A DNA stretch of 64,000 nucleotides from Nocardia brasiliensis (lineage in GTDB: Bacteria > Actinomycetota > Actinomycetes > Mycobacteriales > Mycobacteriaceae): assembly GCF_011801125.1 (NCBI RefSeq), contig NZ_CP046171.1, positions 4,650,001 through 4,714,000 of the forward strand. The letters run 5' to 3'. A model generated the notes under the pieces. It did not search any database. It had not been told where the DNA came from and saw nothing but the letters and a program-made list of their open reading frames with translations. The position numbers were made by a program, and so were the translations under genes. Positions 7,344 to 16,104 of this stretch are shown one piece after another. Position 1 is the first letter of the stretch; each line of letters begins with the position of its first letter.

Positions 7344-7952
7344 TCAGGCCGGTTCGGCACTGAACACGATCGTGGTCCACCCCCCGAGGTGGATCCGGTC
7401 TCCGCTGCGCAGCCGCACCGGCACCCGGGCCGGGATGAGCTCGTCACTGCCGTTGACGCTGGTGCCGTTGGTGGAGCCGAGGTCGGTGACGGTGAGCCCG
7501 TCGGTATCGAGGTGCAGGGTGGCGTGCGCCCGCGAGACGCCGACATCGGCGGGCGCGATGCCGAGATCGATGCCGGGGCTGAGTCCCTGTGAGACACTGC
7601 GCTTGCCGATCAGGATGTCGTTGCCGTACAGCACGATTCGACGTTCCGGATAGAACGCCGGAAACCCGACCTGGTCGGCGTCGGGCCCCTTGCGGGCGAG
7701 CACCCGATCGTAGAACTCCCGATCGGCGGTGACGGTGGCGACCCAGACGACCGCGGCCACGGTTTCGGCGGCCGGTCGCGGCGCGGGCAACGCCGAGTCG
7801 TGTCCGCACTGCTCACAGAAGCGCCCGCGCGACGGCGCGCCACACGCCGGGCACAGCGCGTCCGGCTCGGCTCCCGCACCGATCGGCGCACCACAGCTGT
7901 CGCAGTAGTCGGTCGCGCTCGATTCGTGCCCGTCCGGGCAGATGACGGTCAT
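7344..7952 (-). CDS. Zinc-ribbon FHA domain protein of the extended pknG operon
   Basis: A 202-residue protein. Residues 1-50 hold two CxxC pairs arranged as zinc ribbons (CDSCGAPIG, CPACGAPSRGRFCEQCGHD). Residues about 105-195 are a forkhead-associated domain with GKRS, VSRAHATLHLDTDG and DLGSTNGTSVNG, i.e. the conserved Arg, Ser-Arg-x-x-His and Asn that bind phosphothreonine peptides. The ATG immediately follows the stop of the VWA gene (0 bp), with GGAGGGG inside that gene's end, so translation is coupled. It is the last gene of the operon. By analogy with GarA/OdhI, the FHA effector of PknG in relatives, it may read out kinase or phosphatase action, but it is not a GarA ortholog (different architecture). 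Confidence 0.87.
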   Translation of the reverse strand: MTVICPDGHESSATDYCDSCGAPIGAGAEPDALCPACGAPSRGRFCEQCGHDSALPAPRPAAETVAAVVWVATVTADREFYDRVLARKGPDADQVGFPAFYPERRIVLYGNDILIGKRSVSQGLSPGIDLGIAPADVGVSRAHATLHLDTDGLTVTDLGSTNGTSVNGSDELIPARVPVRLRSGDRIHLGGWTTIVFSAEPA

Positions 7953-9239
7953 CTACCCCTCCTTCCGCACCCTCGCCGTCTTGGTCGATCGAGCGTCGAG
8001 AGCCATCTCCGCCGCGGCCGCGACGCCGGCGCGCAACCGCACCGTCCCGTTCTGCTCGTCCACCTCGACCACGCCGCGCAGCAGCTTCGCCGTGCCCTCG
8101 TTCCCTGATTCCGCGGCGAGTTCGACCGCCCTGCGCAGCTTCGCCGTCGCGGTCTCGGTGTCGCCGCTCTTGCGCGCCGCCAAACCCTCCTGCACGGCCT
8201 GGGCCAGCTCGGCCTGACCGGTGTAATGCGCTACGCGCCTGCTGATCCGGGCCGACAGTTCGGTGTCGGTCGTCCAGACCGCCTTCACCAGCCCCTGGCC
8301 GAGCACCGCGTCGTTGCTGACGACGCTCACCCGCGCGGCGAGCTTCTCCCGCCCCGGCGCTCCCGGTTCCACCTCGACCTGCACGTGGTAGTCGCGATCC
8401 TCGGCGCCCCAGGCCCCGAGCGGATACTCGCCCACTTGCGCGCCGGTGTCGACCCGGCGGGCGGTGAGATCCTCGATGGCAGGGGCCACCTGCTTGACGA
8501 ACCGGACCCGCGCCCCGGCAGGCGTCCACACCCGCAGCGTCAGTTCCGGAATCGCCTTCGCCATCGAGCCACGCATCATGGCGGTGAAGTCGGCGGCCAG
8601 CTCGGCCGGGTCGGCCACGATGTCGACGGTGCCGTGCAGCGCCGAGGCGATCGCCCGCAATTCGTCCACCCGCCAGTCGGTGCCGACGCCGCGACAGTCA
8701 CAGGTGAACACGCCCTGGGACTGCTCGATCTCCGCGGCGAGCGCGGCGGGCTGCTCGTGCTCGTTCTTGCCGTCGGTGAGCAGGATGGCGTGCACCATGG
8801 CGCCGGGATGCTTCTTGGCCAGCTGCCTGGTCAGACCGAGCCAGGTGCCCATCGCGGTGCCGCCGCCCGCCTTCAGCTTGTCGAGTTTGCGCCGCGCGGC
8901 GGCCCGGGATTCCCGGTTGGCGGCCAGCGACGGTACCTCGGTGGGGAAGGCCAGCCGGGCGATATGCGTGCCATCGACGATGGCGAACCTGGTCCCGTCG
9001 GGCATCGCGTCCAGCGCGGCCGTAGTGGCCTGGCGGGCGCCAGCGAATTTGTGCCCGGTCGCCATCGACCCCGAGCAGTCGATGATGAGCACCTCGAGCC
9101 GCTCTTGCGGTGGTGCCGCGACCACCAGATCGGCCGCAGTCTCCACCGTGACCACGGCGTCGACCGTGCCGACCCCGTCGGCGAGGTATTCGTTCTGATC
9201 TACGGCGACCGAAATGCCGTTTTCTGCCGCGGAATTCAC
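7953..9239 (-). CDS. von Willebrand factor A domain protein (TerY/Yeg-like)
   Basis: A 428-residue protein starting at GTG 9239, which overlaps the PP2C stop as GTGA. A VWA domain follows a short beta segment: MIDAS motif IIDCSGSMATG (DxSxS), the Thr in GGGTAMGTWLG and the Asp in LLTDGKNEHEQ, so metal binding looks intact. The C-terminal half contains a beta-sandwich and a helical region (ELAQAVQEGLAARKSGDTET) with a highly charged end. No signal peptide or membrane segment, so it is a cytoplasmic VWA protein. VWA plus PP2C plus kinase is the composition of the TerY-P triad described by Anantharaman, Iyer and Aravind; whether this set is homologous or only analogous is unclear. Confidence 0.87.
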   Translation of the reverse strand: MNSAAENGISVAVDQNEYLADGVGTVDAVVTVETAADLVVAAPPQERLEVLIIDCSGSMATGHKFAGARQATTAALDAMPDGTRFAIVDGTHIARLAFPTEVPSLAANRESRAAARRKLDKLKAGGGTAMGTWLGLTRQLAKKHPGAMVHAILLTDGKNEHEQPAALAAEIEQSQGVFTCDCRGVGTDWRVDELRAIASALHGTVDIVADPAELAADFTAMMRGSMAKAIPELTLRVWTPAGARVRFVKQVAPAIEDLTARRVDTGAQVGEYPLGAWGAEDRDYHVQVEVEPGAPGREKLAARVSVVSNDAVLGQGLVKAVWTTDTELSARISRRVAHYTGQAELAQAVQEGLAARKSGDTETATAKLRRAVELAAESGNEGTAKLLRGVVEVDEQNGTVRLRAGVAAAAEMALDARSTKTARVRKEG

Positions 9240-14848: not shown

Positions 14849-16104
14849 AGGAACTCCTTCAACCGTGGCCACAGGCCGGCCACCACCGCGGCGGCGGCGA
14901 ACACCAGCAGAGTCAGCGTGCCGTACGGGCTCAGGGTCAATGCCGCACCCGCGGTGGACAGGTCGTCGCGCAGGGCGCGGCGTTCCTGCGCGAGGTTGTC
15001 GTTCATCGCGCGATCCAGCGCGGCGAACCTGGTGGCCGAGGACTGCGCCGCGGTGCCGATCGCCTGGTCGACCGCCGCACGATAGTCGGCGGCCGCATAG
15101 GCGGCCACCTGGGCGCGGTGACCCGAGACCCAGTTCGCGAGTTCCTGTGCCGCAACGGAATCGGGGGCGACGACGGTCGCGAGGCGCTCGCGCACTTCGA
15201 GCGAGTGCCTGGTGTACTGCGCCTCACCGGCCGCGATATCGCCGCGGGTGATCAGCTGCAGCGTCTCGTCGGTGCGCGCCTGCTGTGCCGCGATCCGCGC
15301 TTTAGCAAGGGTTTCGAAGCGGCTGCTGGCGCCGGCGGCGCTGGTGTCCAACACCTTCGACGCTACGGCGGGCGCGGCGAGCAACCACAGCAGCGCCAGC
15401 ACGCTCGCGCAGGCCGCCAGCACGACGCCGAGGTTGGCCCGGCGGTTGGTGCGCCGCAACAGCATCCAGGACGCCACCGCACAGGTGAGCAGCACCAGCA
15501 GCACCGCGACGATGCTGAGCAGCGGCCTGGCGCCGATGGCCCGCTCGTCCGCGCGCACCGCCGCGAATCGGGCGGTGGTGAGCTGTTCGGCATTGGGCAG
15601 CAGCGAATTCTGCATCAGGGCCGAGGCCTCGCTCAGGTACGACGAACCGACCGGGAAGCCCTGCCGGTTGTTCGACCGCGCGGCCTCGACCAGCCCGGTA
15701 TAGGCGGGCAGGTCGGCCACGATCCTGGCGACGATCCGGCGGGTTTGCTCGTCGGATGCCCCGACCGTGGTGTCGGCCAGCGCGGCCGCGGCGTCGGCGA
15801 GCGACTGCTGATACTGCTGACGCACCGCGGGCGCCTCGATGCCGCCGGACAGGAACGCGCTCGCCGCGGTCGCGTCCGCCGCCGAGAGCGCCACATACAG
15901 CCGCTGGGCGGCAAAGGCGAGCGGCTCGGTGCGCTCCAGCGCGCCGAGCTGCCGCGCGGACTTGCCGCTCATCTGATTCATCGCGGTGAACCCGGCGAGC
16001 AGGCACAGCACGACCGACGCCACGATGACGCCGACGATCACCCCCGGCGTCGTGCCGGCGAAGCGTCGCAACCACAGGGTTCCGTTGCGGATGCGAGGTC
16101 CCAC
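14845..16104 (-). CDS. glnX: GlnX-like four-helix membrane signal relay protein
   Basis: A 419-residue membrane protein. AAGGAGG lies 5 bases before GTG 16104, giving a better start than the upstream ATG 16119. Helix 1 (about 20-41) is followed by an external helical domain, then helices 2 and 3 (about 185-237, PLLSIVAVLLVLLTCAVASW), a second external helical domain and a last helix before the basic C-terminus WPRLKEFL. This two-sensor-like architecture and position immediately before glnH match GlnX (Rv0412c type), proposed to pass the GlnH ligand state to PknG. It is the first gene of the seven-gene operon. Confidence 0.87.
   Translation of the reverse strand: MGPRIRNGTLWLRRFAGTTPGVIVGVIVASVVLCLLAGFTAMNQMSGKSARQLGALERTEPLAFAAQRLYVALSAADATAASAFLSGGIEAPAVRQQYQQSLADAAAALADTTVGASDEQTRRIVARIVADLPAYTGLVEAARSNNRQGFPVGSSYLSEASALMQNSLLPNAEQLTTARFAAVRADERAIGARPLLSIVAVLLVLLTCAVASWMLLRRTNRRANLGVVLAACASVLALLWLLAAPAVASKVLDTSAAGASSRFETLAKARIAAQQARTDETLQLITRGDIAAGEAQYTRHSLEVRERLATVVAPDSVAAQELANWVSGHRAQVAAYAAADYRAAVDQAIGTAAQSSATRFAALDRAMNDNLAQERRALRDDLSTAGAALTLSPYGTLTLLVFAAAAVVAGLWPRLKEFL

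Follow-up and report, generated by a model that had tools for sequence, protein, structure and literature searches.

The kinase PknG has been studied intensively for its roles in amino-acid sensing and in mycobacterial virulence. As far as the available excerpts of published work describe them, PknG operons have the form glnX-glnH-pknG or consist of pknG with glnH, and in the classical mycobacterial and corynebacterial operon (PMC6069109, PMC8546545, PMC9769921) GlnX is encoded with GlnH, which has defined Asp contacts, and with PknG, which carries rubredoxin, kinase and TPR domains. A nutrient-dependent switch of another kind is known from the archaeon Sulfolobus, where, in the excerpts at hand (PMC6509490, PMC7472852, PMC5300886, PMC12852372), the ribbon-FHA protein ArnA and the tripartite VWA protein ArnB are accompanied by the TPR-bearing Ser/Thr kinase ArnC and the Ser/Thr phosphatase PP2A. 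Here we analysed a seven-gene operon in a stretch of 64,000 nucleotides of Nocardia brasiliensis (contig NZ_CP046171.1, positions 4,650,001 to 4,714,000; hereafter the window), which combines elements of both. We think it rather probable that this operon is the full actinobacterial PknG amino-acid-sensing system with a built-in ArnA/ArnB-type phospho-switch. Among the papers listed in searches of the open-access literature, supplements and figures such as the STRING figure of PMC6069109 apart, we found neither a description of the seven-gene set nor a paper combining PknG, ArnA and ArnB.

All seven genes lie on the minus strand in the order glnX-glnH-g3-pknG-pp2c-vwa-fha, and their six junctions, read from the sequence in order from glnX, are GTGA, ATGA, ATGA, ATGA, GTGA and 0 bp. 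The first-pass annotation had described seven overlapping or touching genes, and coordinates and junctions agree with it exactly. The features are as follows.

14845..16104, minus strand: glnX-like membrane protein of 419 aa, GTG start; NF058618 (GlnX family) at 387 bits, cut-off 250
13874..14848, minus strand: glnH-like lipoprotein, predicted to bind amino acids, GTG start; SBP_bac_3 at 107 bits
12693..13877, minus strand: g3, a helical protein of 394 aa that belongs to no family; its position before pknG is conserved
10318..12696, minus strand: pknG, with two N-terminal mini zinc ribbons, rubredoxin, kinase and TPR domains (PF16919, PF00069, PF16918)
9236..10321, minus strand: PP2C phosphatase of 361 aa with an N-terminal double ribbon (PF00481, PF13672)
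7953..9239, minus strand: VWA protein of 428 aa, ArnB-type by predicted fold, GTG start; VWA and VWA_3_C (PF18571)
7344..7952, minus strand: FHA protein of 202 aa with ArnA-type layout; PF00498 at 54 bits
12628..12681, minus strand: PknG mini ribbon 1, from the sequence
12475..12528, minus strand: PknG mini ribbon 2, from the sequence
10073..10243, minus strand: PP2C double zinc ribbon, from the sequence; 97% to the FHA ribbons by hhalign
7977..7988, minus strand: C-terminal STKT of the VWA protein, a conserved motif and proposed phospho-acceptor

The sensor end resembles that of the classical operon, as domain searches and the sequence show GlnX, GlnH and PknG to be encoded together. Against the equivalog NF041460, which has a cut-off of 780 bits, GlnX scored 258. 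When GlnH was aligned to 6h2t and compared by counting with the residues named in PMC6069109, six of the six Asp-contacting side chains of M. tuberculosis GlnH (R, T, S, R, W and D) were found to be kept, and because of this conservation the signal of GlnH is most likely Asp or Glu. For g3, no match was obtained in Pfam at E 1 or in NCBIfam at E 0.01; its AlphaFold model is helical (mean pLDDT 90.7), and a fold search with this model gave nothing convincing. PknG matched PknG_TPR at 378 bits, along with rubredoxin and Pkinase, and its best solved relative is 2pzi (E 1.9e-194). Unlike this set, the classical GlnX-GlnH-PknG operon, as the excerpts describe it, is without g3, PP2C, VWA and FHA genes. 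The PP2C was matched at 35 bits with its metal motifs NED, ADG, SDG and GDN intact, and the MIDAS of the VWA protein (DCSGS, GGT, TDG) is intact as well, in line with the first-pass annotation.

The VWA and FHA proteins look like an Arn-type pair. The VWA protein matched VWA_3_C (PF18571) at 72.5 bits, and its predicted fold is tripartite over the full length, with a beta-sandwich, a VWA domain inserted in it and a C-terminal helical part, which makes it ArnB-type by this model. Its closest relative, 95% identical, comes from N. brasiliensis NBRC 14402, and 4FX5, a VWA protein of Catenulispora acidiphila and one of the closest known counterparts, is described as a structure only in the one relevant paper found. 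In the FHA protein, two N-terminal zinc ribbons precede an FHA domain with intact core residues, and this is the layout expected of an ArnA-like partner, namely an N-terminal zinc ribbon and a C-terminal FHA domain; its profile matches ArnA (5a8i, E 1.3e-8) in an alignment that spans both ribbon and FHA domain. Like the Arn switch, the operon thus has ribbon-FHA and tripartite VWA proteins, a TPR-bearing Ser/Thr kinase, a Ser/Thr phosphatase and a nutrient input. The Arn switch differs in being archaeal, in using PP2A rather than PP2C, in the OB and TPR domains that precede the kinase of ArnC and in its output, repression of the archaellum; GlnX and GlnH go unmentioned in the excerpts on it.

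Moreover, the C-terminal end of the VWA protein co-varies with the FHA gene. It carries the conserved motif [LI]xxx[ST][TSV]xT, which, among 108 VWA proteins scoring above 400 bits, was present in 93 of 93 full-length proteins with an adjoining FHA gene and in none of the three (L009, L028 and L030) that are without an FHA gene despite ample flanking sequence. The remaining 12 lie at contig ends; all 12 keep the motif, and in four of them 708-1014 bases remain, less than many FHA genes of Streptomyces would need. The three motif-less proteins stand separately on the VWA tree, two of them with support, and are too few for significance. L009, L028 and L030 represent a third locus type, in which pknG and vwa are accompanied by a divergent glnX-like gene and PP2C and FHA are absent; in L028 (9274-11283, plus strand) the VWA protein has a C-terminally fused zinc ribbon.

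From the gene set, the intact motifs, the predicted VWA fold, the FHA layout and the co-variation of tail and FHA gene we infer the following phosphorylation and binding steps. GlnH would bind periplasmic Asp or Glu, and GlnX would relay its state across the membrane to the PknG TPR domain, as in the published model of the classical set. Once active, PknG would phosphorylate the VWA protein on Thr or Ser residues of its C-terminal helical part and its STKT tail. The FHA protein, until then held loosely with its zinc ribbon on the beta-sandwich or C-terminal part of the VWA protein, would lock onto the phosphorylated VWA protein through its FHA domain, and the tight VWA-FHA complex would be the output state, acting on further targets. 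The co-encoded PP2C would strip the phosphate, and the complex would fall apart. A membrane-to-cytosol phospho-switch, already suggested in the first-pass annotation, is thus the likeliest reading of the gene set.

In a class sample of 246 genomes, PknG_TPR was found in 93 (E 1e-10) and VWA_3_C in 65 (E 1e-3). Within 6 kb of a PknG_TPR match lay 56 of the 79 VWA_3_C matches, across 55 genomes; some of the other 23 are weak or lie on short contigs, and some belong to a second type of locus seen in one family. Profiles built from the seven window proteins were then used to annotate 123 loci, made up of the best 80 of 584 VWA relatives, 40 loci picked from the class sample and three from the window genome. 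The exact seven-gene order recurs in 69 of these, the window's own included, six have the order g3-pknG-pp2c-vwa-fha-glnX-glnH, six are of the classical three-gene type and the other 42 are variant, incomplete or cut off by a contig end; these counts measure conservation and not frequency, most loci having been fetched for encoding a relative. The set, in one of the two orders, is seen among others in named loci of Nocardia, Mycobacterium, Mycolicibacterium, Streptomyces, Kitasatospora, Streptacidiphilus, Actinomadura and Saccharothrix. The gene neighbourhood recurs more than by chance. The search for this order had been suggested together with the description of a compact set of kinase, dedicated phosphatase, VWA and FHA proteins, and family matches and recurring order bear that description out. 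Second loci with pp2c-vwa-fha occur in one family, in L044 (7383-11581, plus strand), where no PknG was recognised nearby, and in L045, where PknG is very divergent. A draft contig of Nocardia alni (L057) has glnX, glnH, g3, pp2c, vwa and fha, with no pknG over threshold.

The window genome itself holds three PknG, in a classical set (L004), in L005 and in the window set. The GlnX, GlnH and PknG of L004 are 36, 47 and 48% identical to the window proteins, and this PknG is without N-terminal mini ribbons. Around the pknG of L005 (8618-11041, minus strand; at 1.02 Mb of the genome), tblastn matched none of the other six proteins in the surrounding 18 kb; this lone pknG has a counterpart in G049 (L040). 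Among 98 genomes of the genus, PknG_TPR is present in 98 and VWA_3_C in 54, with on average 3.19 PknG per genome where VWA_3_C is present versus 1.93 where it is not. With VWA_3_C taken as its mark, about half of the genus appears to have the seven-gene set in addition to other PknG. A tree of 65 PknG places the classical three-gene and lone PknG of the family in one clade (100/100), which joins the seven-gene clade of Nocardia and Mycobacterium (100/97) and, next, further seven-gene lineages. At least five changes on supported branches are required to explain the three-gene state (eight rows, one of them with PP2C too). Because three-gene PknG are nested among seven-gene lineages in this way, the tree favours a seven-gene ancestor with repeated loss of the extra genes, the direction of change being our reading of a midpoint-rooted tree with four long-branch rows. 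Hence the seven-gene set looks like the form in which the PknG operon is widespread, and not like something added to that operon.

The first-pass annotation had also noted that kinase, phosphatase and FHA protein carry related N-terminal zinc ribbons and had taken these to suggest shared docking. PknG, in addition to its rubredoxin, the PP2C and the FHA protein each carry two N-terminal CxxC ribbons, and in profile-profile comparison they are indeed alike (PP2C-FHA 97%, PP2C-PknG 94%, FHA-PknG 88%); the ribbon region of the PP2C matched DZR at 21 bits, under the cut-off of 27.3. The PP2C ribbon is found in 95 of 96 relatives with a located catalytic start (from 111), and the PknG mini ribbon pattern in 87 of 96 seven-gene-type loci, in one of seven three-gene loci and in neither of two lone pknG, although the three-gene rows belong mostly to one clade and represent few independent events. 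As a case for shared docking the ribbons are nevertheless weak, because GarA outside Mycobacteriales has a similar ribbon whether or not PknG is present: the PP2C-GarA comparison gave 96%, and a ribbon precedes the phosphorylation motif in 15 of 17 readable GarA with PknG and in 17 of 18 without (GarA loci L129-L166). Ribbon likeness, judged from these profiles, does not seem to mark out the seven-gene set specifically.

Other explanations, which are not mutually exclusive, must be weighed against the phospho-switch. The best of them, which we still hold to be somewhat unlikely, is that the set does no more than adjust the classical output: PknG would phosphorylate GarA, and the PP2C, VWA and FHA proteins would set the gain. 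GarA/OdhI-like proteins occur in 243 of the 246 class genomes (E 1e-25; 30 over the curated cut-off), many more than the 93 with PknG_TPR. Of the 17 readable GarA from genomes with PknG, 10 have a strict ETTS, all six Streptomyces-type GarA and that of the window genome included, versus three of 18 from PknG-negative genomes; by this count the first Thr is retained more often where PknG occurs. Two further PknG-negative GarA have DTTS. The first Thr of ETTS, which we take to be the PknG site, is replaced in genomes with the seven-gene set by V (L134, L135) or Q (L139, L140, L141), and by Ser in a sixth (L136); because of the V or Q, PknG can hardly use this site in five of these genomes. According to excerpts of published work, the PknG phosphosite is Thr21 of GarA and Thr14 of OdhI, and phosphorylation at ETTS has been published for S. 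erythraea GarA. In the Nocardia GarA, ETTS is present and the ribbon absent, and the related GarA that were read are ribbon-less too. Thus, GarA may be an output in genomes that retain ETTS, such as this Nocardia, but is unlikely as the general output of the seven-gene set. Since this genome has a separate classical glnX-glnH-pknG set, a division of labour between the two sets is also possible. An output separate from GarA/OdhI, as first proposed, is therefore favoured by the five genomes with V or Q and by the classical set standing apart, and opposed by the ETTS kept in Streptomyces-type and Nocardia GarA.

Several loci weigh against the phospho-switch. VWA remnants in L034, L037 and L043, which score below 400 bits and lie outside the 108, have an FHA neighbour and no tail motif; in L043 (8362-9069, minus strand) the VWA domain is gone and the beta-sandwich is joined directly to the helical part, with a differently spelled Thr-rich tail, and in L037 (7581-9344, minus strand) the VWA domain is likewise lost and the beta-sandwich remains. 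L035 and L038 have no VWA gene and L034 only the remnant, while FHA, PP2C and ribboned PknG persist, and no VWA_3_C match was found elsewhere in these three genomes. L036, moreover, retains the PknG ribbon in a three-gene setting. Because the FHA protein persists in L034, L035 and L038 without an intact VWA gene, it must act otherwise there, perhaps by binding PknG or g3. These three loci fit the idea that the FHA protein is a GarA-like substrate or adaptor docking on autophosphorylated Thr or Ser of the PknG N-terminus, with the VWA protein as a separate scaffold. Docking of GarA/OdhI on phospho-Thr of the PknG N-terminus is described in excerpts of published work, a Ser/Thr-rich linker follows the PknG ribbons here, and GarA/OdhI resembles the operon protein in being an FHA protein tied to PknG, with an N-terminal ribbon outside Mycobacteriales. 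However, the operon FHA protein scored only 31.9 bits against OdhI (NF041660, cut-off 200), a search of its sequence for ETTS found none, and the VWA tail motif is absent where the FHA gene is absent; we regard this alternative as unlikely.

Much less credible is the view of the first-pass annotation that a TerY-P-type triad was captured by the PknG operon. By its definition, as excerpted from PMC11090510, the triad shares with the operon the three activities of VWA protein, PP2C and zinc-ribbon kinase, and it differs in VWA architecture, ribbon position and genomic setting, so that the operon falls outside it: the VWA protein here has the full tripartite ArnB fold in its model, the ribbons are N-terminal and not C-terminal to the kinase, and the set is widespread, with three-gene lineages surrounded by seven-gene ones. 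Actinobacterial kinase-PP2C-vWA genes have also been described within GAP1-N2 GTPase systems (PMC7159879) as part of a GTPase conflict system, set apart by their description, the excerpts of which mention neither PknG nor GlnX nor GlnH. That signalling genes without joint function are neighbours by coincidence is almost certainly wrong, since gene order and overlap recur in many families, even though rearranged and partial loci occur.

The operon is flanked on the same strand by an AraC-type regulator upstream (16503-17546, minus strand) and an S15-type X-Pro peptidase/esterase downstream (5362-7260, minus strand). Elsewhere in the window, an open frame of 1829 codons (54981-60470, plus strand), for which no Pfam match was found at E 1e-5, competes with a frame about as long on the opposite strand and adjoins a GGDEF protein (53652-54944).

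The textbook three-gene version may be a cut-down form of the seven-gene set. A bolder proposal, which we put forward tentatively and would not expect to hold in full, is that the seven-gene operon would be the ancestral actinobacterial PknG system and a bacterial equivalent of the starvation switch that ArnAB forms in archaea. The VWA protein would be the hub to which the ribbons of kinase, phosphatase and reader all attach, and the mycobacterial three-gene operon would be a remnant that has lost this switch and is left with GarA as its sole output. Should the wider set be the full system, the current PknG model describes a reduced case, and phosphatase, reader and VWA partner could be tested directly in Streptomyces. 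It would also link a nutrient switch known from archaea to bacteria in which ligand and sensor are defined.
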